From NCBI RefSeq assembly GCF_001660705.2, contig NZ_LYBV02000001.1, positions 62,001 through 126,000 of the forward strand: 64,000 nucleotides of DNA. Reading direction: 5' to 3'. This document shows, in pieces, positions 26,511 to 58,454 of this stretch (positions within the stretch are counted from its first letter, which is position 1; each line of letters opens with the position of its first letter). A program made the translations under genes and the position numbers. Under the pieces are notes generated by a model. It searched no databases, was not told the origin of the DNA, and worked only from the letters and a program-made list of their open reading frames with translations. Source of the DNA: Saccharicrinis aurantiacus (GTDB lineage Bacteria; Bacteroidota; Bacteroidia; Bacteroidales; Marinilabiliaceae).

Positions 26511-26643
26511 GCCGCCATCCACTATAGCCTTTATTATTTTGCCTAAGTGTTACTAGTTAATGCGTGTGCTCCCCTGTCGCATCCGCTTAACAAGCGCCAC
26601 TATGGCAAAATACCAAAGGGCTGCCGTTTCTGTCAGCGGTGCG
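26511..26643 (+). repeat. Structured intergenic repeat, copy 1
   Basis: An element of about 130 nt bounded by a motif of type CTATCCGCTATAGC (here CATCCACTATAGC at 26516-26528) and CTGCCGTTTCTGTC (26621-26634). The flanks pair (26528-26543 with 26604-26619, 14 of 16 positions), and the loop holds the core TGCGTGTGCT...GTCGCATCCGC (26561-26586). Two more copies occur in the window (26690-26826 and 58321-58454). The stems differ in sequence but pair in each copy, which argues for a folded element. Confidence 0.75.
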
Positions 26644-26689
26644 GGTTGGCAGTAATTTATTTCGTATGCCTCTCTTCTTAATTTTGCCG

Positions 26690-26826
26690 ACGCAGTGTGG
26701 ATAGAAATGGCAGTAAGTGCATTGCTTGGCCTTTTTATAAGGAGGGCGTAGGCGACCTCAGGAAGCCCACGCACCGACTATATAAAAAGAGCTAAGCATT
26801 GTGCTTGCTATAACGGATAGCCACTT
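26690..26826 (-). repeat. Structured intergenic repeat, copy 2 (inverted)
   Basis: The copy runs on the minus strand, facing copy 1 with about 45 nt between. End motifs are GCTATCCGTTATAGC (26821-26807) and CTGCCATTTCTATC (26713-26700). The stem 26715-26739 with 26781-26806 pairs at 24 of 25 positions with one bulge. The core is TGCGTGGGCT...GTCGCCTACGC (26773-26746). The sequence of the stem is unrelated to that of copy 1. Confidence 0.75.
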
Positions 26827-26904
26827 TAACTGCCCTCAAAAATTTAGACAAAAGAGAAGAGAAGAAAGACTTTTTGCTTTGAGTGTGTAAATTAGGAGCT
26901 TCTA

Positions 26905-26934
26905 TTGCAAAACCATAATTATAACTTATTTTTG
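26905..26934 (+). promoter_or_regulatory. Promoter of purT
   Basis: TTG (26905-26907), 19 nt, then TATTTTTG (26927-26934): both elements and the spacing fit the Bacteroidota sigma-factor consensus. It lies 30 nt before the purT ATG. It also covers the upstream TTG that could have been taken as a start, which argues against that start. Confidence 0.72.
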
Positions 26935-26964
26935 CAGAAATTATACCCAATTAAAATAATTAAG

Positions 26965-28146
26965 ATGACTGTAATAGGAACACCTTTATCGGCGGTAAGT
27001 AAAAAAGCCGTTTTATTGGGCTCAGGGGAGCTAGGGAAAGAAGTAGCGATTGAATTACAGCGTTATGGCGTTGAAGTGATAGCGGTTGATAAATATAAAA
27101 ATGCTCCGGCAATGCAGGTGGCACACCGTTCTTACGAGGCTTCGATGCTTGATGGAGAACGATTGGCTGAAATTATCAGAGCTGAGAAGCCTGATTTTAT
27201 TATTCCTGAAGTTGAGGCTATTGCAACAGATACATTATTAGAATTGGAAGATGAGGGTTTTAATGTAATACCTACTGCTAATGCTACTAAGTTAACCATG
27301 AACCGTGAGGGAATTAGAACTTTAGCAGCTGAGGAGTTAGGCTTGTCTACTTCGCCTTATCGTTTTGCAGGTAGTCGTGAGGAGTTTAATCAGGCGGTTG
27401 CTGAAATAGGATATCCTTGTGTGATTAAGCCTATAATGAGCTCGTCGGGTAAGGGGCAGAGTGTTGCGAAAAGTGATGCCGATCTTGATTATGCTTGGAC
27501 TTACGCCATTGAAGGAGGAAGAGGAAATAGCGATAGAGTAATTATTGAGGGTTTTGTTGATTTTGATTATGAAATAACGCTTTTAACCATTAGCCATGTT
27601 GATGGGATTTCGTTTTGCGAGCCTATTGGGCACAGGCAAGAAGGCGGCGATTATCAAGAATCGTGGCAGCCACAAGTAATGACAGACGTAGCATTGGCCG
27701 AAGCCAAAACAATTGCAGAGAAAGTAGTACGCGCTTTAGGCGGATGGGGTTTGTTTGGCGTAGAATTCTTCATTAAAGGCGATAAGGTATATTTTAGTGA
27801 ACTATCTCCGCGTCCGCACGATACGGGAATGGTAACTATGATATCTCAAGATCTTAGTGAGTTTGCATTACACGTAAGGGCTATTTTAGGATTGCCAGTT
27901 CCAAATATTGCATTTCACGGTCCATCGGCAAGTAGTGTTATCATGGTAAAAGGAACTTCTAATCAGGTTACTTTTTCAGGATTAGATTCTGCCTTAACTC
28001 AAGAAAACACGCAGGTGCGATTATTCGGTAAACCAGAAGTTGACGGAGAGCGCCGCATGGGCGTTTGTTTAGCCCGTGCAAACTCAGTAGAAGAAGCGCG
28101 TGCCATCGCTAAAAAGGCGAGTGGCTCTATTACAGTTTCACTGTAA
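26965..28146 (+). CDS. purT: Formate-dependent phosphoribosylglycinamide formyltransferase
   Basis: PurT of 393 residues catalyses formate + ATP + GAR to formyl-GAR, the folate-free route for the third step of purine synthesis. It belongs to the ATP-grasp superfamily, with the N-terminal [21 protein letters not shown] (about 13-33), the ATP-grasp part with [11 protein letters not shown] (about 156-166) and [26 protein letters not shown] near 275-300. The ATG at 26965 begins the family sequence. It needs no cofactor other than formate and ATP, consistent with a formate-producing lifestyle. The structured repeat lies upstream. Confidence 0.95.
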
Positions 28147-28149
28147 TGA

Positions 28150-28239
28150 AGTTATAAATGATAAGTGTTAAGTTATAAATTGCTTTACATCATCTAGGCG
28201 TTTATAACTTAACACTTATAACTTATCATTAATTTTAAA
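28150..28239 (+). repeat. AT-rich repeat, left of four-helix-bundle gene
   Basis: It contains a perfect 17-bp inverted repeat (28163-28179 with 28201-28217) around a 21-nt loop, and a 42-nt block (28198-28239) that recurs without change at 28681-28722. A 21-nt block (28170-28190) recurs at 28613-28633. The gene between is described at 28245-28607. Confidence 0.85.
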
Positions 28240-28244
28240 AATGT

Positions 28245-28607
28245 ATGGCAGCTAGTATTGTTAGGGATAAGAGTTTTAGTTTTGCAATTAGAATAGTTAA
28301 GTTGTATAAGTACTTAACTAAAGAGCAAAATGAATATATACTTTCAAAACAAATATTAAGAAGCGGTACAAGTGTTGGAGCTATGATTAGGGAGGCTGAG
28401 TTTGCAGAATCGAAAGCAGACTTTATTCATAAGATGGCAATAGCACAAAAAGAAATTAATGAAACTAAATATTGGCTCGACTTATTGAAGGAAACCTCCT
28501 ATTTGTCAGAGGATATGTACAATTCGATAAATAAAGACGCAACTGAAGTAATTAGTTTAATCACCAAAATAATAATCACATCAAAAGCAAATTTAAAAAA
28601 GTTATAA
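28245..28607 (+). CDS. Four-helix-bundle protein (23S rRNA IVS/Avd-like)
   Basis: Protein of 120 residues with the family signature FAIRIVKLYKYLTKEQNEYILSKQILRSGTSVGAMIREAE (about 11-50) and three further helices. Members of this family (TIGR02436) are encoded inside 23S rRNA intervening sequences, as solitary genes, or as Avd in diversity-generating retroelements. Neither a reverse transcriptase nor variable repeats are found nearby. The gene is inserted between purT and recG and is framed by long, near-identical AT-rich repeats. This suggests a small mobile or recombining unit. Confidence 0.87.
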   Translation: MAASIVRDKSFSFAIRIVKLYKYLTKEQNEYILSKQILRSGTSVGAMIREAEFAESKADFIHKMAIAQKEINETKYWLDLLKETSYLSEDMYNSINKDATEVISLITKIIITSKANLKKL

Positions 28608-28722
28608 GTGCTAAGTTATAAATTGCTTTACATGAAGTAAGCGTTTATAACTTATCATTTAACACTTATAACTTAAGAAGGCGTTTATAACTTAACACTT
28701 ATAACTTATCATTAATTTTAAA
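28601..28722 (+). repeat. AT-rich repeat, right of four-helix-bundle gene
   Basis: It repeats the left block with an additional stretch of about 40 nt, itself of the same kind. The last 42 nt (28681-28722) are identical to 28198-28239 and end 2 nt before the recG start codon, so the repeat supplies the recG leader. Confidence 0.85.
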
Positions 28723-28724
28723 GC

Positions 28725-30824
28725 GTGAGCGACTTATCCACATTAGATATAACTTACCTGCCAGGTGTTGGACCCAAAAGGGCAGAGGTACTAAAGCGTG
28801 AACTGAAAATTCAGTCTTACGAGGATTTGTTGTATCATTTTCCATACAAGTATGTGGATAGAAGCCGTACTTATTTGATAAGAGAAATTGACAATTCGGC
28901 ATCGCATATTCAGCTAAAAGGTAAAGTCGCCTCTTTAAATACAGTTGGTACAGGAAAAGGGCAGCGTTTGGTGGCCAAATTTACAGATGGAACCGGAGTG
29001 CTTGAATTGATTTGGTTTAAGTATATCGATAAGATGAAGAAAATACTCGATGCCAAATCGGAGTATATCATCTTTGGGAAACCTTCTGCTTTTAAAGGTA
29101 CATATAGTATTGTGCACCCTGAGATGGAGAAGGTGGATGAAAGCAAACCTAAAATAGCATCGGCCTTACAAGCCTTTTACAATACCAGTGAAAAAATGAA
29201 GAATAGCTATTTGAATTCAAAAGCTATTCAGAAGATGCAGCAAGGTATATTTCTATCTTTTAAGGGAGCCATTTCTGAAACATTACCAGCTTATATTGTG
29301 AAGCAATATAATTTAATGATTTTAGATAGTGCTCTTCGTACGGTTCATTTCCCAACTGATGCTAAGTTGTTGGAGCAGGCACAATTTCGCTTAAAATTTG
29401 AAGAGTTATTTTATATTCAACTCAATATATTAAAACAAAAAACACAGCGCAGTAAAAATATACAAGGACATATTTTCGGAAAGGTTGGTGATATATTTAA
29501 TCAGTTTTTCTTTAATAATTTACCCTTTGAACTCACAGGTGCTCAAAAAAGAGTAATTCGTGAAATAAGAAACGATGTAGGTACAGGTCACCAAATGAAT
29601 CGCCTGCTGCAGGGCGATGTTGGTAGCGGAAAAACAATGGTGGCACTCATGGTTATGCTTATCGCTTTGGATAATAATTTCCAGGCTTGTTTAATGGCAC
29701 CTACTGAAATATTGGCATCGCAACACCTGGAATCTATTCAGGAGATGCTAAAAGAGATGCCAATTAACGTGAAGTTATTAACCGGTTCGAGCAAAAAGAA
29801 AGAGCGCGAACAGATACATGCAGAGTTATTAAGCGGAGAGCTGCAAATTTTAATTGGTACACACGCCTTGCTTGAAGATGTGGTGCAATTTAAAAACCTA
29901 GGTATGGTGATTGTGGATGAGCAACACCGCTTTGGGGTAGCGCAACGCGCCAAGTTATGGCGTAAAAATAGTATTCCACCACACGTGTTAGTGATGACGG
30001 CAACTCCAATTCCTCGTACACTCGCCATGACGGTTTATGGCGATTTAGATGTATCCGTTATCGATGAGCTTCCACCAGGGCGTAAACCTATTGAAACGAA
30101 GCATTATTTTCATAATAAGCGAAATAACTTAAATCAGTTTATAAAAGGCGAAATTACAAAAGGTCGTCAGGTTTATGTGGTTTATCCTTTAATTGAAGAG
30201 TCTGAGAAAATGGACTTTAAAAACCTTGCTGAGGGTTTAGAGTATATGCTAAGTGCATTTCCTGAGTTTAAAACAACTATGGTTCATGGGCGCATGAAAC
30301 CCGCAGAGAAAGATGCTGCCATGCAAGAATTTGCTAGCGGTAAAGCACAAATATTAGTGGCAACTACCGTAATAGAGGTGGGCGTTAACGTACCTAATGC
30401 TTCGGTAATGATTATTGAAAGTGCAGAGCGTTTTGGTCTTTCGCAGTTACACCAGTTACGCGGACGAGTAGGTAGAGGTGCTGAGCAGAGTTATTGCATA
30501 TTAATGACGGGCTATAAAATGGGCGAGGATACTAAAAAACGGATGCGCATTATGGTGGATTCCAATGATGGTTTCGAGATAGCTGAAGCAGATATGAAAC
30601 TACGTGGCCCGGGTGACCTAGAAGGTACCCAACAAAGTGGACTTCCCTTTGAACTAAAAATTGCCAATATAACCCGCGATGCCCAACTCATGCAGCATGC
30701 GCGCAATGTGGTGGAGGTAATTTTAGAAAATGACCCAGATTTAATAAAACCCGAAAATCAAATTCTCAACAAACAACTTACTAAGCTAGCTAGGCAAAAG
30801 ATGAACTGGAGTTTAATTAGTTAA
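28725..30824 (+). CDS. recG: ATP-dependent DNA helicase RecG
   Basis: Fork-reversing helicase of 699 residues. The N-terminal wedge/OB domain (about 8-200) contains TYLPGVGPKRAEVLKRELKI. The helicase domain follows with Walker A GDVGSGKT (about 295-302), DEQH, TATPIPRTLA and the C-terminal QLRGRVGRG. It starts with GTG at 28725, right behind the repeated block; the following residues (SDLSTLDITYLPGVGPKRA) fit the family start. It would be cotranscribed with the four-helix-bundle gene unless the repeats hold a promoter. Confidence 0.96.
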   Translation: MSDLSTLDITYLPGVGPKRAEVLKRELKIQSYEDLLYHFPYKYVDRSRTYLIREIDNSASHIQLKGKVASLNTVGTGKGQRLVAKFTDGTGVLELIWFKYIDKMKKILDAKSEYIIFGKPSAFKGTYSIVHPEMEKVDESKPKIASALQAFYNTSEKMKNSYLNSKAIQKMQQGIFLSFKGAISETLPAYIVKQYNLMILDSALRTVHFPTDAKLLEQAQFRLKFEELFYIQLNILKQKTQRSKNIQGHIFGKVGDIFNQFFFNNLPFELTGAQKRVIREIRNDVGTGHQMNRLLQGDVGSGKTMVALMVMLIALDNNFQACLMAPTEILASQHLESIQEMLKEMPINVKLLTGSSKKKEREQIHAELLSGELQILIGTHALLEDVVQFKNLGMVIVDEQHRFGVAQRAKLWRKNSIPPHVLVMTATPIPRTLAMTVYGDLDVSVIDELPPGRKPIETKHYFHNKRNNLNQFIKGEITKGRQVYVVYPLIEESEKMDFKNLAEGLEYMLSAFPEFKTTMVHGRMKPAEKDAAMQEFASGKAQILVATTVIEVGVNVPNASVMIIESAERFGLSQLHQLRGRVGRGAEQSYCILMTGYKMGEDTKKRMRIMVDSNDGFEIAEADMKLRGPGDLEGTQQSGLPFELKIANITRDAQLMQHARNVVEVILENDPDLIKPENQILNKQLTKLARQKMNWSLIS

Positions 30825-31232: not shown

Positions 31233-34200
31233 ATGATTAAACCTAATTTTTCAGGTAAGATAAAAGGGATTATATTAACTTCTATTTTCTTACTAGTAAG
31301 CGTAAATCTTTTTGCAGAAACCTGGTACTCACTAGCTAGTGGTGATTGGGATGATCCTACCATTTGGACTTTAGATCCTGCTGGAGCGGTTTTTGTTAAC
31401 CCAAGTAATACCTACCCTAAATTATCAAGTGATAACATAGTTATTCTTTCGGGTAAAACAGTAACAATGCCAGATGGTATTGCACCCTATGATTCTCCTT
31501 TACGCAATTTAAGTGTTATCTGCGGAGTGCTTACTGTTGACGGTCGCTTAGATTTGAGGAGTTCTGATCAATCAACATTCTCGGCAATAAGGGGTGGAGG
31601 TAAAATTATTTTAGGAATAAATAATTTTCCTATTGGAGACAGAACTCATTTTGTAAGCAAGGGGCAAGGGGAAGGAACGGTTGTTTATAATAATAACTAT
31701 CCTTGGCCTTGGCAAGAAGAATTTTTTAATGTAGAGGTAGATTTTATCGATCTTACAGATAATAGACGATTGACCATAAACCACGAACTTAAGGTTAACG
31801 GTAGCTTAACTATTAAAAATGGAAAAGTAATACTTGGTGGAGATAGTGGGGCCGTTAACGTTGTTGTTAGTGAGGATTTAATTGTAGAGGAGGGAGCTGA
31901 ATTGCTATCGTCTACAGATGGTGGAGTAACGGGTTTTCATACATTAGAACTATATGGTGATTTTATAAATAGAGGGACTGTTGATTTTACCGACGGTGAT
32001 CAATATGCAGAACCTAATACCAGTGCCGTGAAAGTTAGGTTCCTAGGAGCAAGCGATAATACCATGCTTTGTGATGGACTAACGAACCTGTATCGTATTT
32101 TTGTAAATAAAGGAACAGATAAAACTTACGGACTAACAATTAGTGCCAACAATTCAAATAACTTTACTTTATATGGACCAGTCACAGGATCTACTTCAGA
32201 TAACACAGATGGCTCTGGCGGTTGGCAAAAGTTACCTTTGGTTATAGAGAACGGAACTTTACAATTAGGTGATAATATAAAAATTGATCGTTTAGGCGAG
32301 AATATGAATGGTTCTTCACCTAATGAATTTACTATTCCGGAAACTGCTAGATTATGGATTAATGGAGCAGATGTTGTTACTGGATTAGAAGGGAAATATT
32401 GGCAACAAAACTGGAATGGAGTATCTGTTTATGGTGAATTAAAAGTATCATCAGGTGCGTTTACCTGTCCGCAATATTCGGCAGGTATTTCTTATTACAC
32501 GCCTGTTAATAGCACAGGTGCTTTGGTAATTGAGGGAGGTGCGGTTAATACGCCTCAATTGGCTCAAATTGACAATGGAGCGCCTTTTATCTACCGACAG
32601 AGTGGAGGTGTGTTTAATGTCGATGTTGAGGTAGAGCAGGATCACCTGCACCCATTCTTTGAGCTTAGAGAATCTACATCAGTGTTTGAAATGAGTGGAG
32701 GTACAATTATTCTTGCAGAAGATAATGGTCAGGATAACGGAGGTTTTTATGTGGCTTCTGCTGAAGGGAATTACAATGTAACAGGAGGTACCATTCAGGT
32801 TGAAACTTTTGGGGGAGATTGTAAAATATACACTACTGCCCCTTTGTATAATCTTAAAATTACTAAAGGTACAGGGGGTAATAGAGCAGTGATTGTTGAT
32901 TATGACGGATTAACTGGCACAACTTGGCAACCCCCATCATTGACAATTCTTAATGACCTTACTATTGAAACAAATAGCATATTTGATGATGGTTCCTATC
33001 AGGTTTTTATTGGAGGTGCTCTTAATATTGGAGGTACATATAATCAAAGCGGAAAATTGGTGTTTAATGGATCGCAAAATGGATCTATTAACAATACAAC
33101 AGGTGGCACCATAGAACTGAATGGTTTATATATTAATAAAGAAAAGCATCCTACAAGCAATCAGTTCTATTCTGTAGTTATGGGAGGTAATAGTAATATT
33201 GAGATTAATGGAACTATTAAATTGCAACGAGGTTCTTTTGATCCGGTTAACTTTTGGCCTACAGTTACAGATAGTGTATGTATACAAGAGGGGATGCTTA
33301 CCTCTAGCGGAACCGGCGGTTTAGAGTTAGTAGGGTCGATAATGCAAAATATAAAAGGTAAATTTGGTAAGGATTATGACTTTGGGCGTATACATCTAAA
33401 TAATGCCAATAATGGTATGGTATTGGCTTCTGATGTAAGGATTAATGATTTTAATTTTTCGTCTTCAGGCAATGCTAAGGTAAATATGGGCGCTTATCAA
33501 CTTAAAGTTGATGGGGTAATTACCAATGCTAATAGCGAACGATATTTTTATACTGCCGGTAATGCTAGTGATAAAGGTTTATCCATTAAAAGCACCATTG
33601 GATCCTCGGTAGGTCATTTGGTAACTTATCATTTAGGTACATCTACATCTGATTATTGTTATGTATCGCTTTCTACCATTGCCGCACAGTCGCCTGAAAC
33701 AACAGGTTATTTCTCTATTACACCTGTTAATAGTCCACATCCATCAACAACTGATCCATCAAAAGTTATGGCCTACTATTGGAAAAGTACGGTAGAAGGC
33801 TTTGATAATCTAGTAGATAATATTATTAGCCTAGAGTTTACTTCCAATAAGAACCTTAAGGGTTGGAGTACTGCCTACATGGAAAATCTAGAATGGCAAT
33901 TAGGTGATGCAAAGTATGGAAAAAATGAAGAAACCCTTATTGTTGATCCCACTGCTAATTATGGTTCTTATAAAAAACTTATAAATAGTGAGTATACAGC
34001 AGGTTTGGATAACGGTAACGGACAAATACCAATAGCTGGAGCTAAAACATATACTAGTACAGGTTCGCATAATTGGCATACTACTAGCTGGATAGACCAA
34101 GATGGAGTAAGTGGTCAGCCAGGTTCATCAGATATTGCTATTGTTAGAGAAGGCGATACAGTAACTATAACTGAAAGTGATGCAGATGCTTCACAAGTGA

Positions 34201-37200
34201 GTATTAGTGGAATGTTAAAAGTGAAAAATGGAACTTCAGGTCATGATATAGGAGTAATTAAAGGTTCTGGTCATTTAATATATGAAAAGAATGGTAATTG
34301 GGCAGTTTACACCACAATAAATGGCGATCATACTGAGTTTTGTGATAATCCTGAAGCAACGATTGAATTTACCTCTACCGATAATAACCTCAAAGTATTT
34401 CCAGATCAAAGTATTATACCATATTATCCTAATTTAGAGATTACAGGTACAGGTACAACACAAATAGATCATGGAAATGGTAAACAGGTCGAGTTGGTAG
34501 TACTAGGAGATTTCTCAGTGAACGGTCCTGCATTCGATATAAAAGGCATGAATGATGGAGAAGTGGAGGTTTTTGGTGATGTTATAATAAATGCAGGAAG
34601 TATAAAATTTCCCGAAGCTCATAATCATAATATGACTGTTTATGGTGATATAAGGTTTATAGGTAATGGAGAATTTATAGGTAATATAGATAGTAAACTG
34701 TTAACTCTTCATGGAGGCATTGATACCGGTACCTCAGGTGTTTTTAATTTTACCCAAACAGATGTAGTATTTGAAGGTGTAAATTCTTCGGAGGTAAAAG
34801 GTGATGGAACTCTTATGTTTCATCGTATTTATGTTGATAAACCTATTGCAGAAAAGCTAGAGTTTACATCAAATTTTAGTGTTAATGGCCCAACCAATGA
34901 TGCTTCTAAATCATTGATTATAAAATCAGGAGAATGTCATTTAAATAATGCTGCAATTAATATCAACCTTACAACAGGAGGAGATAACTACAATATTCCC
35001 TTAGAGTCGAAATTAATAGTTAGTAGCGGTACAATAAATGCTTCAGGTAATTCTGGTATTCAACTTAGCGGTGCCTTGATCTTAAATGGAGGTATGGCTA
35101 ATTTTGATGGTACAGGAGGAAGTAATAGTAGTTTTATAGAGTACACTACTTCAGGACTCTCTTATCTCGAAATTAGTAACTCTAGTATGCTTCAGGTGGG
35201 CGATCAAATTCGACGTTCCGTTAATACTGATCAAGGAATACTAACTTATGTTCAAAATGATGGATTGGTTTTCCTTGGAACAAAGGCCACAAATATGGAG
35301 TCATCAAGAGGAGTATTTGAGATTAGTGGAGAAGGGAGCTCTTTTTCTCAAGGCGAGAGTGACGTTATTCTAATAAATAATAGTAATGGAAGTAGTAGTA
35401 TGGCATCTTTGTACTATTACCCTGAACTTGTTAATGTGGCCACTGGTTCTGGTTTTGTTATTGGAGCTTCTGGAGAATTTGGGGTAAATGCAAGTCAGGC
35501 TATTAATAATCTAATTCTGGCAGGAAATAGTAATAGTCATGTAAAACTCTATACTAATGCACTTACAGTTACTGAATCTTTAAATATTGGGTCAACAACA
35601 AATTTCGATGCCAACGATTTGTACTTATATGTAGGTGGAGATATTACCAATGATGGAACCTTTACTCCGGGCACTGGTGCTGTATTTATGACAGGTACAG
35701 ACGCTCAAACCATTAATGGATCTGCTGCATCTACACTATTTTATGATTTTACTAAAATTGGCGGAACTGGTGAATTAAGTTTAGAATTATCAGGAGTAGA
35801 AGTAAATCGTTTCTTAACACTAGAGGATGGCTCAATCAACACCAATACTAATATTATAACAGCCAAAGGCGATGTGGTTAATAACGGGCAGTTTATAACT
35901 ACATCTGGTGATGGTCTTGTAATGGGAGGTTCTGAATTACAGGGTATTCAAGGGCAGGGAAGCATTGATGTATTAACCATAAACAATACAGCAGGTATTA
36001 ATTTGCCTACACAATCATCGGCTTTTGCCATTGGTAAAAAGTTAAAGTTGGCTAATGGTATTTTTGATATTGGGCGTAACTTACTCGAAATAAATGATGA
36101 GGCTATTATAGTAGATGCAAGTGATGGTTTAACAGGCTTTAGTTCTGGTAATATGATCCAAACAAACTTATCCTTTACAGATGCAGGTATCAAGAAATTC
36201 TTTTCATCCTCATTTGTTGGAGATTTTGTTTATCCAATAGGTTCTTTTGGAAAGTATACACCAATAACTCTTGATGTTAGCGGTAATACTGTAAATGATG
36301 GCTCAATACGAGTAAAAGCAGCTAACGAAGCTCACGTTAGTGTTTTAGATCCAAGTAAGGTTCTTCAATATAATTGGACTTTAGATGCAGATCAAATTTC
36401 AGGGTTATCAGCAGATGTTGTTATGCAATATGAGAATGCGGATGCATTGGGTGATGAGAGTAAGTATATTAATGCTAAAATATTATTAAATTCTGATGAG
36501 TGGAATAAGTCAGATGGAAGTATTGATATTGCAGCAGATCAAATAAAATATAGTTGGACAGGTGCTGATGATTTGGTGATAGATGGAGATTATACAGCTG
36601 GCGAGCCTGATGCTATTCCTGATAAATTAGCTACTTATATTACCACGAGTGATGGTTCATGGGATGATGAAAATAATTGGGCTACTTATGATCCGGATAC
36701 AGGAGTAAAAGGTACACCTGGGGATATGATTCCAGCTGGAGGCCCGTCTGGGGCAATTGTTTATGTAGAGCATGAACTGACCTTACCTGCTAGTCCAAGT
36801 AAGGTAGCTTATCGTACAATTATTAACACAATGGGTATAATTGATGTAGGATCAACTTACGGGCATCGTTTAGGTACAGTGAGTGGAACTGGTCTTATAA
36901 AAATCTCTGATGGTGGATCTTTACCTGCAGGGGTTTATGATGCTTTTATTGATGCTGTAGGGGGAACTATTGAATATTATGGTTCTACTGATTATGATAT
37001 TATGAATGAATTGCCTGTCTATAATAATGTTACAATATCGGGTAGTGGAAAGCGTAGGTTACCCAATAGTGATGTTGTTGTTGGTGGAAGTTTGCTTATA
37101 GAGGGTGCTAACCTAGTAAATGAATATAATGAGGTGCTGTATATTGCAGGAAACTTAACATTACAAGGTGGCGGTGTTTATACTGCAAATCAAGGAACAA

Positions 37201-39473
37201 CTTCTTTTGTAGGAAGTACAACTCAAAATATTGATAGTGAGTTTTCAGATAGTAATGCATTCTACAATTTTGAAATTGATAATCTAAAAGGGGTAAATAT
37301 CAATAGCAATGTTGAAATAAAGAATAACCTAAAGCTCAAAAATGGAATATTAAATATAGCAGATGGTTTAGCCTTAACTTTAAGTTCTCATTCGAGCAAT
37401 ATTGTTACAGGAGGGAGCGACAATTCGTATGTCTCAGGAAAAGTAAGAAAATATATAGTATCTGGTAGTAGTTTTGTTTACCCGTTAGGTGATGGGTATC
37501 GTTATGGTTACATTAAAGTGCTTCCACAGGGAGGGTCTTTAGGATACTGGGATGCACAATACTATAGTCAGGGAAAGGATAATACTGTTAAGTCAGATGA
37601 TGTAGAGTATGTTAGTAATAGTGAATATTGGCAGTTGTCTGCTCCATACGAAAATGCACTTGCAAAAGTGACTCTCAGGTGGGATGCTCTTAGTGGTGTT
37701 GATGCAAGCGATGTGCAAATAGTAAACTGGACAGACAATACAAGCTCAGGTAATAAACGTGAAGAATGGGATGTTTTACCTATTAGTAATGTGATAGGAG
37801 ATAATAATTCAGGCACTGTCGAATTACAAAACTATTTAGAATTTGGGTATAAAGCAGGAGAAGTTCATCATTATTTAACATTTGGTTCCGAATCCGAACC
37901 ACCTGCGTTTTCATGGACAGGAGACGTAGATACAGATTGGTTTGAACCCGGTAATTGGAGTACTTTTGAAGTGCCGCATTCAGGTTCAGATGTTACTATA
38001 GTAAACACAACAAATAAACCTGTTGTTTCAGCCCTAGGGCATGTGTATTGTAATGACATAGAGATACAAAAAGACGCAAGTTTAACAATTCAACCAGGAG
38101 CACGTGTTGATGTATTAGGAAGTGTAAATTGTACAGATTCAGAGCAGTTGGTTATTCAAAATACAACTGATTTACCTACTTCGGTAATTATAGGAGGAAT
38201 TGTTAGTCACAATATTAAATCAGAATGGACTTATGCGGAAGCAAGTAGGTATTGGTATATAGGACAAGCTATTAATGGTGCTACTGTAAGTGATTATGGA
38301 ACGTCAGGTGTTGATGTAATTATCTATAATTATTTAGAAGGATGGAATAACCTCACATCAGGTACATTAGATGCAAAGTTAGAGGGGTATAGCGTTAATT
38401 TTAAAGACGCAAACACAAAAGTTGCAGTTACCGGAAGTATCAATAATGGAGAATTAACATCTAGTTTATCAGAAGGTTGGCATTTAATAGGTAACCCTTA
38501 TTTATCATATTTAGATGTTAATCGCGAATCAGCATGGGATTTTGATAATGATAAAATTGATCAAACAGTTTGGATTAGAACTGACTTAGCTAGTGTTAGA
38601 GGCTTTGCCACTTATAATATTACTGAAGGTGTCGGTGCAAATGGTGGATCAAATGAAATTGCTCCAGGTCAAAGTTTTTGGCTAAATGCAAATACTACTG
38701 CTAATTTTAAGATTAATGAAGCAGCACAAATTCATGGAACGAACTCCGGTGGTGAAGGAAGTTTAAAATCAACATCAACTATTGAAAGAGAAGAGGTTTT
38801 TAGATTTACAATTGGAGATGGTGTTTATGCCGATGAATTAATTGCTGTATTCAGACCTTATGGAAGTACAGTATTAACCTCACGAGATTCAAAAAAGAGA
38901 TTCGTTTCTAATGCTGACTTTCCTCAAGTATACGCAATAAAATCATCAACACAAGTTGTAATAAATATTGCTTCAAGTTTAATTGATGAGCAAAGTATAC
39001 CATTAGGTATAAGCGTTCCTGAGAGTAAAAGCTACGTTTTTAAAGCAACTAATTTAAATACATTTTTACCAACATATGATATGTCTCTTGAAGATAAGTT
39101 AATGGGAGAGTATTATGATCTTAGGATTAATCCTGAGCTTGAGATAGAAATGGAAGAGGGAACAAGCGATGATCGTTTTGTTCTGCATTTTGCCCAACGT
39201 AGTACTGATTTAGAAGAACCAGTAATTGCAAAAAAACCAACTATTTATGCAGCTGATGGTGATGCTTACATAAATATTGACACTGAGCAATTTAATAATA
39301 ACACAGGAGGCTGTTTTGTAGAGGTTTACGACTTTGCCGGAAAGAAACATATTATTCAAGACCTACATGCAGCACTAACCCAACTAAAATTGCCAGAAAG
39401 TAATAAGTTGTGGATTATTGTAGTACGTATTGGTAATAAAAGTTACCACGAGAAAGTGAGTAGTTTTAATTAA
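31233..39473 (+). CDS. Giant secreted T9SS-type beta-repeat protein
   Basis: Protein of 2746 residues with a signal peptide (cut after NLFA, about residue 28). Segments of the type GxWDDxxxWxxxxxxxxPxxxDxVxI start at about residues 28, 940, 1800 and 2223, each followed by long runs of short strands with conserved Gly and Asn that should form beta-helices. The last 80-90 residues (with GGCFVEVYDFAGKKH, LPESNKLWIIVVRIG and a final KVSSFN) have the layout of a T9SS type A sorting domain. It is therefore probably secreted or anchored on the cell surface. A binding or adhesin role is likely but not shown. No enzymatic motif was found. No por or spr genes are present in the window. Confidence 0.85.
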   Translation: MIKPNFSGKIKGIILTSIFLLVSVNLFAETWYSLASGDWDDPTIWTLDPAGAVFVNPSNTYPKLSSDNIVILSGKTVTMPDGIAPYDSPLRNLSVICGVLTVDGRLDLRSSDQSTFSAIRGGGKIILGINNFPIGDRTHFVSKGQGEGTVVYNNNYPWPWQEEFFNVEVDFIDLTDNRRLTINHELKVNGSLTIKNGKVILGGDSGAVNVVVSEDLIVEEGAELLSSTDGGVTGFHTLELYGDFINRGTVDFTDGDQYAEPNTSAVKVRFLGASDNTMLCDGLTNLYRIFVNKGTDKTYGLTISANNSNNFTLYGPVTGSTSDNTDGSGGWQKLPLVIENGTLQLGDNIKIDRLGENMNGSSPNEFTIPETARLWINGADVVTGLEGKYWQQNWNGVSVYGELKVSSGAFTCPQYSAGISYYTPVNSTGALVIEGGAVNTPQLAQIDNGAPFIYRQSGGVFNVDVEVEQDHLHPFFELRESTSVFEMSGGTIILAEDNGQDNGGFYVASAEGNYNVTGGTIQVETFGGDCKIYTTAPLYNLKITKGTGGNRAVIVDYDGLTGTTWQPPSLTILNDLTIETNSIFDDGSYQVFIGGALNIGGTYNQSGKLVFNGSQNGSINNTTGGTIELNGLYINKEKHPTSNQFYSVVMGGNSNIEINGTIKLQRGSFDPVNFWPTVTDSVCIQEGMLTSSGTGGLELVGSIMQNIKGKFGKDYDFGRIHLNNANNGMVLASDVRINDFNFSSSGNAKVNMGAYQLKVDGVITNANSERYFYTAGNASDKGLSIKSTIGSSVGHLVTYHLGTSTSDYCYVSLSTIAAQSPETTGYFSITPVNSPHPSTTDPSKVMAYYWKSTVEGFDNLVDNIISLEFTSNKNLKGWSTAYMENLEWQLGDAKYGKNEETLIVDPTANYGSYKKLINSEYTAGLDNGNGQIPIAGAKTYTSTGSHNWHTTSWIDQDGVSGQPGSSDIAIVREGDTVTITESDADASQVSISGMLKVKNGTSGHDIGVIKGSGHLIYEKNGNWAVYTTINGDHTEFCDNPEATIEFTSTDNNLKVFPDQSIIPYYPNLEITGTGTTQIDHGNGKQVELVVLGDFSVNGPAFDIKGMNDGEVEVFGDVIINAGSIKFPEAHNHNMTVYGDIRFIGNGEFIGNIDSKLLTLHGGIDTGTSGVFNFTQTDVVFEGVNSSEVKGDGTLMFHRIYVDKPIAEKLEFTSNFSVNGPTNDASKSLIIKSGECHLNNAAININLTTGGDNYNIPLESKLIVSSGTINASGNSGIQLSGALILNGGMANFDGTGGSNSSFIEYTTSGLSYLEISNSSMLQVGDQIRRSVNTDQGILTYVQNDGLVFLGTKATNMESSRGVFEISGEGSSFSQGESDVILINNSNGSSSMASLYYYPELVNVATGSGFVIGASGEFGVNASQAINNLILAGNSNSHVKLYTNALTVTESLNIGSTTNFDANDLYLYVGGDITNDGTFTPGTGAVFMTGTDAQTINGSAASTLFYDFTKIGGTGELSLELSGVEVNRFLTLEDGSINTNTNIITAKGDVVNNGQFITTSGDGLVMGGSELQGIQGQGSIDVLTINNTAGINLPTQSSAFAIGKKLKLANGIFDIGRNLLEINDEAIIVDASDGLTGFSSGNMIQTNLSFTDAGIKKFFSSSFVGDFVYPIGSFGKYTPITLDVSGNTVNDGSIRVKAANEAHVSVLDPSKVLQYNWTLDADQISGLSADVVMQYENADALGDESKYINAKILLNSDEWNKSDGSIDIAADQIKYSWTGADDLVIDGDYTAGEPDAIPDKLATYITTSDGSWDDENNWATYDPDTGVKGTPGDMIPAGGPSGAIVYVEHELTLPASPSKVAYRTIINTMGIIDVGSTYGHRLGTVSGTGLIKISDGGSLPAGVYDAFIDAVGGTIEYYGSTDYDIMNELPVYNNVTISGSGKRRLPNSDVVVGGSLLIEGANLVNEYNEVLYIAGNLTLQGGGVYTANQGTTSFVGSTTQNIDSEFSDSNAFYNFEIDNLKGVNINSNVEIKNNLKLKNGILNIADGLALTLSSHSSNIVTGGSDNSYVSGKVRKYIVSGSSFVYPLGDGYRYGYIKVLPQGGSLGYWDAQYYSQGKDNTVKSDDVEYVSNSEYWQLSAPYENALAKVTLRWDALSGVDASDVQIVNWTDNTSSGNKREEWDVLPISNVIGDNNSGTVELQNYLEFGYKAGEVHHYLTFGSESEPPAFSWTGDVDTDWFEPGNWSTFEVPHSGSDVTIVNTTNKPVVSALGHVYCNDIEIQKDASLTIQPGARVDVLGSVNCTDSEQLVIQNTTDLPTSVIIGGIVSHNIKSEWTYAEASRYWYIGQAINGATVSDYGTSGVDVIIYNYLEGWNNLTSGTLDAKLEGYSVNFKDANTKVAVTGSINNGELTSSLSEGWHLIGNPYLSYLDVNRESAWDFDNDKIDQTVWIRTDLASVRGFATYNITEGVGANGGSNEIAPGQSFWLNANTTANFKINEAAQIHGTNSGGEGSLKSTSTIEREEVFRFTIGDGVYADELIAVFRPYGSTVLTSRDSKKRFVSNADFPQVYAIKSSTQVVINIASSLIDEQSIPLGISVPESKSYVFKATNLNTFLPTYDMSLEDKLMGEYYDLRINPELEIEMEEGTSDDRFVLHFAQRSTDLEEPVIAKKPTIYAADGDAYINIDTEQFNNNTGGCFVEVYDFAGKKHIIQDLHAALTQLKLPESNKLWIIVVRIGNKSYHEKVSSFN

Positions 39474-52211: not shown

Positions 52212-52308
52212 GTTATAAAATACCAAGGTATTTCAATTTACAGTTAACAATTAATCCTAGTTAATCGCCTTTAGCGCTAATATACTGTTATCTTATACTT
52301 TATTTTCT

Positions 52309-52316
52309 TATTTTTG
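52309..52316 (+). promoter_or_regulatory. -7 box of the DUF5063 gene
   Basis: TATTTTTG matches TAnnTTTG exactly and lies 31 nt before the ATG at 52348. The gap to the RecQ gene is 136 nt, so this could start the DUF5063/exonuclease/RlmI transcript. Confidence 0.55.
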
Positions 52317-52347
52317 CAACGCAAAATTTAAAAATGATTGAATAAGA

Positions 52348-52962: not shown

Positions 52963-53016
52963 ATTTAATAAAATAGCAAAGTAAGGTTCAGCCTTCCACG
53001 ACTAAAATAAAATATT

Positions 53017-53625: not shown

Positions 53626-53650
53626 CACATCAGATAGAAATTATAAAAGC

Positions 53651-54835
53651 ATGTCATATATTAAAGTAGTTCTCAAGTCGGGAAAAGACCAATCAATGCG
53701 CCGTTACCACCCATGGGTATTTAGCGGAGCCATCAAAAAAATTTACGGTCAGCCAGCGGAGGGCGATATTGTTGAAGTATTCGATAATAAGGATGAGTAT
53801 TTAGGAACAGGTCATTACCAAATAGGCTCTATTGCCGTTCGTATTGTATCGTTTCAACAAGTAGAAATCAACGAAGCATTTTGGAAGTCTCAAATCAAAA
53901 AAGCTTACGACTTACGTAATGTGCAGGGTTTTATTAATAACCCAGAAACCAATGCTTATCGTTTGGTAGGTGCTGAAGGCGATAACTTACCAGGATTAAT
54001 CATTGATATGTATGACGATACTGCTGTAGTACAAATGCATTCAATTGGTATGTATCTAATTAAGGATACTGTTGATGCTATTCTTAAAGAATTATTTGGT
54101 GATGCATTAAAAGCCATCTATAATAAATCAGAAGGAACCATTCCTTTTAAGGCAGATGTTACGCCGGAGAATGGCTACACTTTTGGTCAGTCAGAAGCAC
54201 GTATTGCTTTGGAGAACGGATTGAAATTTCGTGTGGATTGGGAAAAAGGTCAGAAGACAGGTTTCTTTGTCGATCAGCGCGACAACCGTGCCTTGTTAGA
54301 GCATTATAGTAAAGGGCGCAAGGTATTGAATATGTTTTGCTACACAGGTGGCTTCTCGTTTTATGCCATGCGTGGAGGTGCTGAGTTGGTGCACTCGGTT
54401 GATAGTTCAGCAAGAGCGATTGATCTAACAAATGAAAACGTGGAGTTAAACTTCCCTGAAGATCCTCGCCACGATGCATTTGCGGTTGATGCTTTTAAAT
54501 ATTTAGATGATATTAAGGATAAATACGATTTGATTATCCTTGATCCTCCGGCCTTTGCCAAACACAATAATGTGTTGAATAATGCTTTGCAAGGTTATAA
54601 AAAGCTGAATGCAAAAGCATTTGAGCAAATTGCACCAGGTGGTATTATCTTTACGTTTTCGTGTTCAGGAGTAGTGAGTAAAGAAAATTTCCGTAAGTCA
54701 GTTTTTGCTGCTGCAGCTCGCTCAGGACGTACAGTTCGTATCTTAAATCAATTAACACAACCAGCAGATCACCCGGTAAATATTTACCATCCAGAGGGAG
54801 AGTACCTTAAAGGATTAGTGCTGCAAGTTGAATAA
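53651..54835 (+). CDS. Class I SAM-dependent rRNA methyltransferase (RlmI-like)
   Basis: Methyltransferase of 394 residues with an N-terminal PUA-type domain (about 1-75, with RRYHPWVFSGAI), an intermediate domain and a Rossmann domain with VLNMFCYTGGFSFYA (about 225-239) and LIILDPPAFAK (about 297-307). RlmI methylates C1962 of 23S rRNA in E. coli; the homologous target is assumed here. The ATG at 53651 begins the family sequence MSYIKVVLKSGKD; the frame is open 40 codons upstream inside the exonuclease gene, without support. Confidence 0.92.
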   Translation: MSYIKVVLKSGKDQSMRRYHPWVFSGAIKKIYGQPAEGDIVEVFDNKDEYLGTGHYQIGSIAVRIVSFQQVEINEAFWKSQIKKAYDLRNVQGFINNPETNAYRLVGAEGDNLPGLIIDMYDDTAVVQMHSIGMYLIKDTVDAILKELFGDALKAIYNKSEGTIPFKADVTPENGYTFGQSEARIALENGLKFRVDWEKGQKTGFFVDQRDNRALLEHYSKGRKVLNMFCYTGGFSFYAMRGGAELVHSVDSSARAIDLTNENVELNFPEDPRHDAFAVDAFKYLDDIKDKYDLIILDPPAFAKHNNVLNNALQGYKKLNAKAFEQIAPGGIIFTFSCSGVVSKENFRKSVFAAAARSGRTVRILNQLTQPADHPVNIYHPEGEYLKGLVLQVE

Positions 54836-54937
54836 AAATAATAGGGTTTAGTTTAAGCTTGAAGGCTGAAGAGAAAAAACTGAAGAATTTTCTCTTCATA
54901 CTTATCACTAATTTTTACTACTTATCTAAAATAAATA

Positions 54938-56176
54938 ATGAAGTTTACTGAATTAGATTTTACACCCGAAGTACTAGAGGGATTGGATGCCATGAGGTTT
55001 GAAGATACCACGCCCGTACAAGAATTAACAATTCCGGTTATTAAAACTGGTAAAGATTTAATTGCTTGTGCACAAACAGGTACCGGAAAAACAGCAGCTT
55101 ATTTATTGCCTGTTTTAGATAGGATAGTGCGTGATAAACCAGAGGGCTGTAATACCCTAATACTTGTGCCTACACGTGAGTTAGCCCTGCAAATTGATCA
55201 GCAGATTGAAGGTTTTGGTTACTTTTTGCCCGTAACCTCATTGCCTGTTTTTGGTGGTAACGATAAAAAATTGTGGGATCAGCAAAAAACAGCTCTAACA
55301 CAAGGTGCTAATATTATAGTTTCCACACCAGGACGTATGATACAGCACCTAACAATGGGATATGTTGATTTTAGCACCATCTCCCACTTTATTTTAGATG
55401 AGGCCGATCGTATGCTCGATATGGGTTTCAACGAGGATATTATGCAAATAGAAAGTCATTTGCCTAAAAAGCGTCAGAACTTATTGTTCTCGGCAACTTT
55501 TCCTCCAAAAATTCGAACGCTAGCTAAAAACTTATTAACAGATCCTGAGGAAGTAAATATTGCTATTTCAAAACCAGCTGAAGGAATATTACAGGCAGCT
55601 TATGTGGTTTACGAGGCGCAAAAAGATCCTTTGATTGTTGATCTTTTAAAAGATAAGGAGCTACAGAGTATTATCATATTTGTGGGTCGTAAAGCTCGAG
55701 TAAATGATATTACCCGTATGTTGCGTCGTAACGATTTTAATGCGCGTGCCATACATTCTGATTTAGACCAAAATGAACGCATCGAAGTATTACGGGAGTT
55801 TAAAAATCGTAACGTACAAATATTAGTAGCCACTGATATTGTGGCGCGTGGTATCGATATTGAAAATATCGATTTAGTAATTAATTACGATGTTCCGGGT
55901 GATGCTGCAGATTATGTACATAGAATAGGACGTACTGCACGCGCAAAAACCACAGGTGTAGGTATCACCTTTGTGAGTGAAACCGACCAGGCTGATTTTC
56001 ATCAGATAGAGCAACTTATAGAGTCAACTATTTATAAAGTGCCGTTGCCTCCTGAGTACGATGAAGCACCAGAATACAATCCTCAGAAAAACCGTAAGTT
56101 CAATAAAAAAGGTAAAGGTGGCGGAAAAGGCAAAAAACCCTTTAAAAAGAAATCACCTCCAAAAGATAAAAAGTAA
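54938..56176 (+). CDS. DEAD-box RNA helicase
   Basis: RNA helicase of 412 residues of the RhlE type. It has the Q motif (about 1-30, FTELDFTPEVLEGL), AQTGTGKTAAYLLP (about 45-58), PTRELA, DEADRMLDMGF (about 152-162), SATFPP, and HRIGRTARA at the end of the helicase C-domain. The last 40 residues are Lys/Gly-rich (about 372-412), a basic tail for RNA binding. It acts in rRNA maturation or mRNA decay, often in the cold. A strong terminator follows. Confidence 0.93.
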   Translation: MKFTELDFTPEVLEGLDAMRFEDTTPVQELTIPVIKTGKDLIACAQTGTGKTAAYLLPVLDRIVRDKPEGCNTLILVPTRELALQIDQQIEGFGYFLPVTSLPVFGGNDKKLWDQQKTALTQGANIIVSTPGRMIQHLTMGYVDFSTISHFILDEADRMLDMGFNEDIMQIESHLPKKRQNLLFSATFPPKIRTLAKNLLTDPEEVNIAISKPAEGILQAAYVVYEAQKDPLIVDLLKDKELQSIIIFVGRKARVNDITRMLRRNDFNARAIHSDLDQNERIEVLREFKNRNVQILVATDIVARGIDIENIDLVINYDVPGDAADYVHRIGRTARAKTTGVGITFVSETDQADFHQIEQLIESTIYKVPLPPEYDEAPEYNPQKNRKFNKKGKGGGKGKKPFKKKSPPKDKK

Positions 56177-56195
56177 CGCAAGTTGTTGTACTTAT

Positions 56196-56227
56196 AAAGA
56201 CGTAAATGTTATAACATTTACGTCTTT
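56196..56227 (+). terminator. Terminator of the DEAD-box helicase gene
   Basis: A long palindrome (AAAGACGTAAATG with CATTTACGTCTTT and a small central loop) is followed by a T-run. It starts 19 nt after the stop codon. Confidence 0.9.
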
Positions 56228-56276
56228 TTTTGTTGGTATAATTAGCTAATTTTGTAATTCACCAAAACTAAATTAC

Positions 56277-56882
56277 ATGCGTTATTCAATAGCTACACTT
56301 ACTTTTGTCTTCACCCTATCTTCTTGTCACTTCAGCTCTAAATCATCCTCAAATATTAAGGAGGAGAATAGTAACTCAAACGTATTCAATAAAGAACTGT
56401 CACTACAAGGTATTGACTTTTCAGTAACTTCAATAACAGAAAGCTATACAACAAAGCTCCATGTAAAATCATCAGGTCTTGAGATAAGAGAGTACGATGA
56501 AATCATAGATGTGCAGGGAGATTTTATAGTTGGTGCCGAAGTATCAGATTTAAATTCGGATGGTTCTCCCGAGCTATTTGTTTTTACCCAAAGTCCTGGC
56601 AGTGGTTCTTATGGTAAGGTATATGCCTTCTCTGTGAATAATAAAAAGTCGATGAGTCAAGTGTACTTTCAGCTAACTGCTGAAAATAAGGCTATCAATG
56701 AAGGTTATATGGGGCATGATGTATTTTTAATATCAGAAAACAGTTTAGTGCAGCGGTTTCCTATTTATAAAAGAAGCGATAGTAATGCAAATCCAACAGG
56801 AGGAATGCGAAAGGTATCTTATAAAATGCTAAATGGAGAATCCGGTAGAAAGCTTGTTGTTGATAGAGTTGCAACGTATTAA
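56277..56882 (+). CDS. PliI-type lysozyme inhibitor, lipoprotein
   Basis: Protein of 201 residues with lipobox (LSSC, Cys17). The body has the order of the I-type lysozyme inhibitor family PliI: SLQGIDFSV, the acidic motif EVSDLNSDGSPELFVF (about 87-102), SPGSGSYGKVYAFSVNNKKSMSQ (about 105-127), GYMGHDVF and RFPIYKRSDSNANPTGGMRKVSYKML. PliI inhibits invertebrate-type lysozymes and protects Gram-negative cells against animal hosts or predators. The enzyme targeted here is unknown. It stands alone behind a terminator. Confidence 0.85.
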   Translation: MRYSIATLTFVFTLSSCHFSSKSSSNIKEENSNSNVFNKELSLQGIDFSVTSITESYTTKLHVKSSGLEIREYDEIIDVQGDFIVGAEVSDLNSDGSPELFVFTQSPGSGSYGKVYAFSVNNKKSMSQVYFQLTAENKAINEGYMGHDVFLISENSLVQRFPIYKRSDSNANPTGGMRKVSYKMLNGESGRKLVVDRVATY

Positions 56883-56965
56883 TTGTTCTGTAAATAATAT
56901 GAGGCGTGTTACTTTTTTTTATGGTTTCCTTTAAGCTTGATAGAGTGCGAATTAAAGCCAAATAA

Positions 56966-58021
56966 ATGAATAGAATTGCAATATTATATCAGGCTCAACT
57001 TCCTCCTGCAAAGGATGGAATTCAGAAGCCTATGAAAGTAGGAGGGTATTCTGATAGTGGTGCTGATATCGCATTTGAGTTATTAGAAAATAATTTTGAT
57101 GTGATTACGCCAGTTGAAAATCCAGATATAACTAATGATAAGGATTGGGTTTTCCCGGATACGAAAGATGGGATTGAGGCTGCATTACAAAAGGGAGTAA
57201 AAATATTTTGGTTGAATACAGTTTTGTATCAGCAGCATACCATTGAAAGTTATCTTTACAAAGGAATTGAAGTTGTAGGTCAGGTACCAAGTTCGGTAGA
57301 TGTTTATGATGATAAATTGTTCACAAATAGTTTATTGAAATCCCATAATATTCCCATTCCTAAAAACAAACTTATCACAATTGAGAATTATAATAATTTA
57401 TCCTTAGAATTGGAGTTTCCCTTGGTTTTAAAACCAATTAGAGGAAGAGGTAGTCAGGGAGTTATTAGAATTGACAGTCGATATGAGCTCAATGAAAATC
57501 TAGATAAATTATTCTCTGATAATCAATATGGAAATGCTGTGTATGTTGAGCAATATTTAGAAGGACAGGAAATTACCATTACGGTAATGCCAAAAGGAAA
57601 ATACTGGATTAATAATAATGAGGAATACTTCAGCACCCCTTGGTGTTTACCAGCGGTTAAAAGATTCAATCATAATAGGGGAATTGCACCTTATAATGGA
57701 ATTACTGCAGTTATTGAAAATAGTGAAGTTTTGGATGATGACGAGTTGCAGACAATCGAAATTCAAGAAGTGTACCAACACTGTATCAAATCAGCCGAGT
57801 TAATTGGAATTAAGGCTCCAATTAGAATTGATTGCAGAGCCAATAATCAAGGAAGATACTTGTTGTTTGACCTAAATATGAAACCGAATATGACTGGCCC
57901 ATCACGGCCTCATAGAAAAAGACAAGATAGTTTAACGCTACTTTCTGCAAGGAAAATAGGCTGGAATTACGTCGACTTATTGAGTAATATATTGAATCAA
58001 AGATGGAAGGCTAGTAGATAA
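56966..58021 (+). CDS. ATP-grasp ligase-like protein
   Basis: Protein of 351 residues with an N-terminal preATP-grasp part (IAILYQAQLPPAKDG), the ATP-binding subdomain (FPLVLKPIRGRGSQGVIRID, about 151-170), VYVEQYLEGQEITITVMP and the Mg-binding C-part (RIDCRANNQGRYLLFDLNMKPNMTGPSRPHR, about 290-320). This resembles D-alanine-D-alanine ligase, but the substrate residues I know for Ddl are not clear, so the reaction remains open. It might join amino acids or a modified peptide. It is a lone gene. Confidence 0.83.
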   Translation: MNRIAILYQAQLPPAKDGIQKPMKVGGYSDSGADIAFELLENNFDVITPVENPDITNDKDWVFPDTKDGIEAALQKGVKIFWLNTVLYQQHTIESYLYKGIEVVGQVPSSVDVYDDKLFTNSLLKSHNIPIPKNKLITIENYNNLSLELEFPLVLKPIRGRGSQGVIRIDSRYELNENLDKLFSDNQYGNAVYVEQYLEGQEITITVMPKGKYWINNNEEYFSTPWCLPAVKRFNHNRGIAPYNGITAVIENSEVLDDDELQTIEIQEVYQHCIKSAELIGIKAPIRIDCRANNQGRYLLFDLNMKPNMTGPSRPHRKRQDSLTLLSARKIGWNYVDLLSNILNQRWKASR

Positions 58022-58080
58022 GCCAGAATTAAGGAAACAAACCCCTTCGTGGGAGTATATAGTAGATGATGTAAGGGCAT

Positions 58081-58305
58081 AAAAAAAGGGATTTCAACCG
58101 TTGTTGAATCCCTTTTCTTTAACCTAAACCCTAATCTATGAAAAAAAACTTCTTATGTCTGTTTAATGTGGATTTCTATAAAATAGGAATGCCTTGGAGC
58201 CATTCCTATTTATAACCTAAACCCTAACTTATGAAAAACTCTCATGCTCTTCGGTATGGGGTAATACAAAGCTTGTGCCTAAAATTATCTGATTTGAATA
58301 ATTAA
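58081..58305 (+). repeat. Two tandem hairpin-leader units
   Basis: Unit 1: a hairpin (58084-58116), then AACCTAAACCCTAATCTATG (58121-58140) and A-rich codons. Unit 2: a hairpin with a 10-bp stem (58182-58191 with 58201-58210), then AACCTAAACCCTAACTTATG (58214-58233) and A-rich codons. The two leaders agree at 18 of 20 positions. They open frames of 25 codons (58138-58215) and 24 codons (58231-58305) that have no similarity to each other beyond the start. The leader resembles the region before SusC-type genes of this group, but no such gene follows. Confidence 0.65.
58084..58116 (+). terminator. Terminator after the ATP-grasp gene
   Basis: A stem of 13 bp with one bulge (58084-58097 with 58104-58116) is followed by TTTTCTTT. 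It lies 62 nt after the stop codon. It also forms the first half of the hairpin-leader unit described at 58081-58305. Confidence 0.8.
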
Positions 58306-58320
58306 CTCTTGTTAACGGTA

Positions 58321-58454
58321 TTGCCCCTGATAGAAGCGGCAGCCCTATGTAATAGTGGCTTAGTGCTGGTTGGCTGGCGGATGCGACCTTAGGAGCACAC
58401 GCACTGCCTAGCAGTACTTAGCCAACATTACATAGGCTATAGCGGATAGCGGGA
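58321..58454 (-). repeat. Structured intergenic repeat, copy 3
   Basis: The copy runs on the minus strand. End motifs are GCTATCCGCTATAGCC (58450-58435) and CTGCCGCTTCTATC (58342-58329). The outer stem (58344-58353 with 58427-58436) is 10 bp and perfect. An inner stem (58355-58368 with 58412-58426) pairs at 12 positions with a bulge. The core TGCGTGTGCTCC...GTCGCATCCGC (58403-58377) matches copy 1 closely. Confidence 0.75.

Follow-up and report, generated by a model that had tools for sequence, protein, structure and literature searches.

The 64,000-nucleotide stretch of Saccharicrinis aurantiacus analysed here (the window; contig NZ_LYBV02000001.1, positions 62,001 to 126,000) carries three structured intergenic elements, which are chromosomal copies of a large dispersed family whose core is Flavo-1 of Rfam (RF01705), a candidate RNA without known function that has been listed since 2010 (Weinberg 2010; Rfam). 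One strand of the element carries the fold. We tentatively favour the reading that the family works as single-stranded DNA, most probably by helping to start synthesis, with the chromosomal copies being spread repeats. This reading is plausible though short of probable, and its promoter or priming step is what we infer. It is favoured because the copies on the F plasmid have the place and strand of Frpo, a hairpin promoter of the leading region, and because the copies on most other plasmids stand in the same relation to their neighbouring genes.

The window elements were compared with RF01705 (gathering score 42 bits), with R1, a wider covariance model of the family whose E-values are rough, and with one another in an alignment, A1, of 11 rows, comprising the three window copies and eight more long copies of the same genome. 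The elements and their parts are as follows, with strands in the Rfam orientation.

26511–26643, minus strand: copy 1, Flavo-1-type element, long form (RF01705 30.6 bits; R1 28.1 bits; alignment A1; DNA fold)
26562–26586, minus strand: apex core hairpin of copy 1 (sequence reading; conserved A1 columns)
26644–26689, no strand: spacer of 46 bp separating the inverted copies 1 and 2
26690–26826, plus strand: copy 2, Flavo-1-type element, long form (alignment A1 with copies 1 and 3; DNA fold)
26745–26772, plus strand: apex core hairpin of copy 2 (sequence reading; conserved A1 columns)
58321–58454, plus strand: copy 3, Flavo-1-type element, long form (RF01705 50.6 bits; A1; DNA fold)
58376–58402, plus strand: apex core hairpin of copy 3 (sequence reading; conserved A1 columns)

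The initial annotation had placed structured elements at exactly these three positions, where they are indeed present, while its strands (plus, minus, minus) are the reverse of the Rfam ones. It had also guessed at a relation to Flavo-1, and running the model supports this to a different degree for each copy. Copy 3 exceeds the gathering score in the window scan, copy 1 (E 1.2e-4 in 431 bases searched) stays below it, and copy 2, which gave no RF01705 match at E ≤ 10 in 26450–26880 and no R1 match at E 0.05, joins the family through alignment A1 alone. The shared end motifs and core described earlier are found in all three copies, which start with GATAGAAGCGG, finish with GCTATAGCGGATAGC and have an apex core of the GCGACC-nnn-GGAAGC type. 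Copies 1 and 2 face each other as had been described, inverted and with their 5′ sides inward, and lie between divergent genes (a DUF1456 gene and a purT-like gene); copy 3 lies between convergent genes (an ATP-grasp gene and a MatE gene).

The fold is kept across the family. The A1 consensus (RNAalifold) has 47 pairs, of which 32 are changed on both sides in one row or more. The cross-genome alignment of R1, with 65 rows, had 94.9% of its cells paired and two-sided changes at 16 of 22 pairs, and none of 500 shuffles was as high on any of five measures; variation in the 5′ part is understated, since 49 of these rows were collected by two pattern scans in which many 5′ letters are fixed. The selection for a fold that had been proposed from the three window copies is thus borne out by both alignments, in which the two-loop stem modelled by RF01705 is kept by covariation.

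The canonical element, compared across genomes, has the sequence YY|GCGTTA GGGATWG nAG nGGAAATCC (variable arm) GATTG nAnCG GAWAGCCC GA CC..GG nAACGCCC|WAA. It forms a three-way junction from its outer stem, its main stem, which has two 3 × 3 purine loops, and an optional third stem. Pairing of the flanks did not lengthen the outer stem beyond what shuffles give. The likeness to Flavo-1 lies in the sequence and structure of the main stem with its two loops; RF01705 models 76 positions of this one stem, whereas the full element adds the outer stem and often the third stem. The distal arm and the third stem vary widely among copies while their pairing is kept (by eye). The window form differs from RF01705 by its long distal arm, capped by the apex hairpin, and an apex hairpin of this type is also found in Flavobacterium, combined with canonical ends (L327). 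At L155 3992, L188 3500 and L256 2226, a long unrelated insert interrupts the distal arm, whose flanking parts nonetheless remain paired (by eye).

Several measures indicate which strand folds. In the 11 long copies, one strand has 75 G/A mismatches and 3 C/T ones. It also has 55 G-U and 32 A-C pairs, from an aligner that scores the two equally; the latter figures are totals for whole elements, the variable stems alone having been read by eye. Folded as DNA, the Rfam strands of copies 1, 2 and 3 reach −25.4, −25.7 and −30.1 kcal/mol (z −3.56, −3.47 and −3.53), against −21.0, −23.8 and −24.6 kcal/mol (z −2.84, −3.48 and −2.20) for the opposite strands; the two strands of copy 2 are nearly equal, with the Rfam strand only slightly better. 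Four plasmid copies gave −22.0/−17.5, −31.9/−22.9, −41.6/−32.5 and −41.8/−30.5 kcal/mol for the family strand and its opposite. Integron attC sites likewise have conserved ends, a variable paired middle and one folded strand, but Flavo-1 lacks an end of the GTTRRRY type (by eye) and its copies are dispersed rather than placed in arrays.

The family is large. We found at least 63 distinct places in the S. aurantiacus genome by the union of searches, window copies 1 and 2 included. Further copies with pairing stems, whose absence the initial annotation had named as an argument against a folded mobile or RNA element, thus exist. Searched separately, the genome holds at least 57 RF01705 matches at E ≤ 10, of which 35 reach the gathering score and the weakest three resemble chance, and at least 52 R1 matches; these counts are lower bounds because the best 150 candidates were scored and copy 3 reached only 28.9 bits there, over a partial model. 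Window copies 1 and 2 were missed by both whole-genome searches. Beyond this genome, 27 named genomes hold from 1 to at least 117 copies each, a pattern scan of the genome collection gave at least 120 stretches, and matches occur in 13 of 61 genomes of relatives at E 0.001 and in 22 of 392 genomes of the order at E 1e-6 (best 11 candidates per genome scored), with S. aurantiacus included in both counts. Among 50,697 phage records there was one partial match, and R1 matched in four of six viral stretches.

One copy at the start of a contig of the S. aurantiacus genome (C1; L025 84–640) follows 5S rRNA and tRNA-Met. In three genomes of the same genus, most of the nine copies are no more than about 1 kb away from the end of a contig, possibly next to rrn operons. 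A link with rRNA as a general rule was rejected, as it rests on the single copy after 5S rRNA and tRNA-Met.

BLAST with one canonical element matched 17 of 72,556 plasmid records, and a Moraxella copy as the query matched 31; R1 matched in all 19 of the BLAST-positive stretches examined, 13 from the first search and 6 from the second. Full elements are present on plasmids of Paraclostridium, Moraxella, Shewanella, Vibrio, Acinetobacter and Bacteroidota, hosts that span three phyla. On the Shewanella, Vibrio, Moraxella and Acinetobacter plasmids, the copies lie amid ArdC/ArdA-type, ParB, RadC and other genes, and are often repeated in the same direction; we label these neighbours leading-region-type genes. 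Two Shewanella plasmids each carry three same-direction copies, 223–277 bp before the start codons of an ArdC-type gene, ParB and a third gene, and one of these neighbours is ArdC by Pfam. Of 33 plasmid copies, the two in F included, 25 have an antisense gene on their 5′ side and 8 a sense one, and the start of this gene is 199–470 bp away in 19 of the 25 (the count omits L401, whose numbers are identical to those of L400, and a weak second match in L398). In most plasmid copies, the folded strand is the template strand of the 5′-side gene. In F, Moraxella and Acinetobacter, the element also runs against the direction of the transfer genes.

In the F plasmid, an unfiltered R1 search of 46–70 kb gave two matches (E 8.3e-7 and 3.9e-4), both on the strand opposite to the leading genes. 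These copies, found by R1, are not among the BLAST matches listed for two canonical elements in the plasmid collection. Both lie inside a 559-bp duplication, 89% identical, which precedes ssbF in one instance and a second operon in the other. In favour of the reading, R1 gave nothing more at E 0.1 in 166 kb of other plasmid DNA, made up of a further 29 kb of F, the whole of ColIb-P9 and 43 kb from a Shewanella plasmid (best E 0.71; first 46 kb of F outside the search). Frpo2 and Frpo1 are reported as 92% alike, about 5 kb apart and upstream of ssbF and ygeAB. The duplicated block fits this published pair, although the equation is our own. It is also reported that the incoming strand can serve for reading anti-defence genes of the leading region, Frpo/ssi hairpins acting as promoters in single-stranded DNA, and that the leading genes of F are read while the DNA is still single-stranded; in F, the strand that folds is that very strand. 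The likeness to Frpo/ssi thus consists of matches inside a duplication that fits Frpo1/Frpo2, on the template strand of the leading genes, and, elsewhere, of repeated Flavo-1 copies before several plasmid operons; it differs in that Flavo-1 is also abundant on chromosomes. Among the papers listed in a literature search, none names both Flavo-1 and Frpo.

A number of observations weigh against a single-stranded start site. ColIb-P9 is reported to have Frpo homologues, but R1 at E 0.1 found no match anywhere in it. The blocks shared by F and ColIb-P9 start where the R1 matches end, beside them and not within them, so that an identity of the element with the promoter hairpin itself does not follow. 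The 25 of 33 antisense neighbours are not independent, since the genes beside plasmid copies are mostly on one strand, and the plasmid gene table is incomplete. Unlike in F, the elements of the Shewanella plasmid pS22303 point along the transfer operon. If its oriT lies as in F, the folded strand there would not enter first. The G-U excess and the G-A loops are also compatible with RNA. The window copies are of the long form, a distant subtype of the family, and are, as far as known, chromosomal and not on a plasmid. Finally, no consistent orientation relative to genes was seen on chromosomes.

This last observation also bears on the view that the family is a structured non-coding RNA or a cis-regulatory RNA, in line with its Rfam filing (Gene; sRNA). 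The strong covariation in both alignments, the predominance of G-U over A-C on one strand and the listing by Rfam and Weinberg 2010 are all in its favour. However, no arrangement relative to genes is preferred. In the S. aurantiacus genome, the flanking genes occur in all four arrangements (15, 12, 8 and 7 of 42 copies, after setting aside 14 of 56, of which 9 overlap a predicted frame and 5 have no gene on one side). The 141 copies elsewhere divide into 24 convergent, 70 tandem (44 antisense and 26 sense), 20 divergent, 20 at edges and 7 inside predicted frames, which is near the 108, 506 and 106 convergent, tandem and divergent gaps of the baseline. Of the 94 copies beside the 3′ end of a gene, 29 lie within 10 bp of that end, and a placement rule like that of an untranslated region is absent around chromosomal copies. 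A transcriptome paper on F. psychrophilum reports Flavo-1 in sense and antisense alike, with many matches outside transcripts, and a single genome may hold at least 117 copies. We therefore consider an RNA function improbable. RNA and single-stranded DNA had both been named as carriers of the fold; the fold itself stands, and it is the DNA alternative, unlike the Rfam filing, that we favour, from indirect evidence.

The facing copies had also been likened to REP-type pairs moved by Y1 (RAYT) transposases, an explanation that is now largely refuted and that we regard as very unlikely. Both kinds of elements are small, intergenic, structured and present in many copies and inverted pairs, and for Flavo-1 no target-site duplication stood clearly above shuffles in the flanks of 117 elements. 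Some Y1 match exists in 21 of 28 Flavo-1 genomes, the copy in G391 has an IS200-type Y1 frame at a distance of about 1 kb (L118; by eye), and a paper on Y1 classes describes subclass 2.6 RAYTs of Bacteroidetes with 'atypical' repeats, reported there to lack a GT[AG]G foot. Such a foot was not seen in the ends and flanks of the 117 elements, where Flavo-1 ends as YY|GCGTTA...GCCC|WAA and not as GTAG. The remaining 7 of the 28 genomes, holding 14–98 copies, have no Y1 match at E 0.01, although these are drafts in which a gene could be missed. The S. aurantiacus genome has four Y1 matches at E ≤ 1, and no Rfam family was found around them at E 0.05. One of its RAYT-like genes is surrounded by a different palindromic repeat instead, and tblastn (E 1e-3) with its two RAYT-like proteins found only their own genes among stretches that include 126 retrieved by Flavo-1 patterns. 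RAYT/REP was rejected as the source on these grounds: high-copy genomes without Y1, own Y1 genes without an Rfam match nearby, a RAYT-like gene amid another repeat, and stretches without RAYT relatives. A link elsewhere is conceivable. The gene with the other repeat (C21; L033 1169–2611; 184 amino acids) lies amid several palindromic repeats of the GCTGCCGCACGTGTCCCCACGTGTGGT type and resembles a REPtron set.

Another alternative is that Flavo-1 is a non-autonomous mobile repeat without host function, spread by a recombinase or polymerase that recognises the folded strand, with inverted pairs perhaps moving cargo such as defence genes. We hold this to be quite possible, if somewhat doubtful. 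Copy number is patchy within the genus, where three of the eight other genomes have 3 copies and five have none, against 46 in S. aurantiacus by one search; near-identical lineage-specific subfamilies were seen by eye in three genomes (G000, G051 and G427); and the ends of the 117 elements are sharp. The orientation of neighbouring copies is in line with this as well. Among 30 pairs within 8 kb in four genomes, the 5′ sides point inward in 15, outward in 8 and in the same direction in 7 (p 0.005 against 25%), compared with 15, 20 and 37 of 72 far pairs. Further stretches gave 13 inward, 6 outward and 2 same-direction pairs among 21 (2 resting on weak matches and 7 from one Aquimarina isolate; no statistical test). 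However, the idea of inward pairs arose from G051 and the S. aurantiacus genome, and in the two genomes looked at afterwards, G430 and G427, the inward share is only 8 of 19 once two G427 pairs in stretches chosen for them are left out.

Window copies 1 and 2 enclose only 46 bp. In G051, three inward pairs enclose a type I restriction–modification system, PARIS (AriAB) and 1.6 kb with short frames only; the two defence systems (PARIS at L108 6956–8898 and the type I system at L110 6560–12186) lie amid housekeeping genes. In G187, which has two RF01705 matches in total, the pair brackets an HNH gene that sits between parts of a C5-methylase gene (C6 8465–9597; L112/L126). Similar HNH pairs occur in L171, in L216 (1490–3362, beside the start of a methylase, by eye) and on a Paraclostridium plasmid. 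In the S. aurantiacus genome, one inverted pair (C28; L102 4026–8200) encloses a dCTP-deaminase-like gene and a methyltransferase.

Many pairs in high-copy genomes enclose ordinary genes, and the cargo cassette therefore stays a rival rather than a general rule. The interrupted methylase is weakened as proof of insertion because, in G394 (L268), a short N-terminal methylase-like piece adjoins HNH without Flavo-1 (by eye). Flavo-1 is present at only 2 of 28 loci of that HNH gene family, and the HNH endonuclease was accordingly rejected as the element's own enzyme. For the mobile repeat, no candidate enzyme and no empty site came to light, and the even spacing before plasmid start codons suggests use.

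Apart from these elements, the window contains an open reading frame of 2746 residues (31233–39473) with no Pfam match at E 1e-5.

If the family acts as a single-stranded DNA start site, the unpaired family strand would fold into a three-way junction or a long hairpin, and the folded strand would help to start synthesis on that strand, as a primer or an early transcript, in the manner of Frpo/ssi of F-type plasmids. The chromosomal copies would have spread by copying, and would be kept between genes, where little harm is done. Such copies may be of use to DNA in a single-stranded state, be it in uptake, transfer or replication, or they may be passengers.

A wider version of this proposal, possible but rather unlikely in our view, would make Flavo-1 a cross-phylum class of single-stranded DNA start site, placed on the incoming strand of conjugative plasmids before anti-restriction, ParB and SSB operons, beside Frpo in F, and present in tens to more than 100 copies on many Bacteroidota chromosomes. 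Were this true, much of the incoming or exposed single-stranded DNA of Bacteroidota would carry a start signal, and a defence gene flanked by inverted copies would have a start site regardless of the strand that enters. If the element does act in single-stranded DNA, leading-region signals of the F type would extend to elements of Shewanella, Vibrio, Moraxella, clostridia and Bacteroidota, the question would arise why some chromosomes hold so many copies, and the whole Rfam family would need to be read anew.

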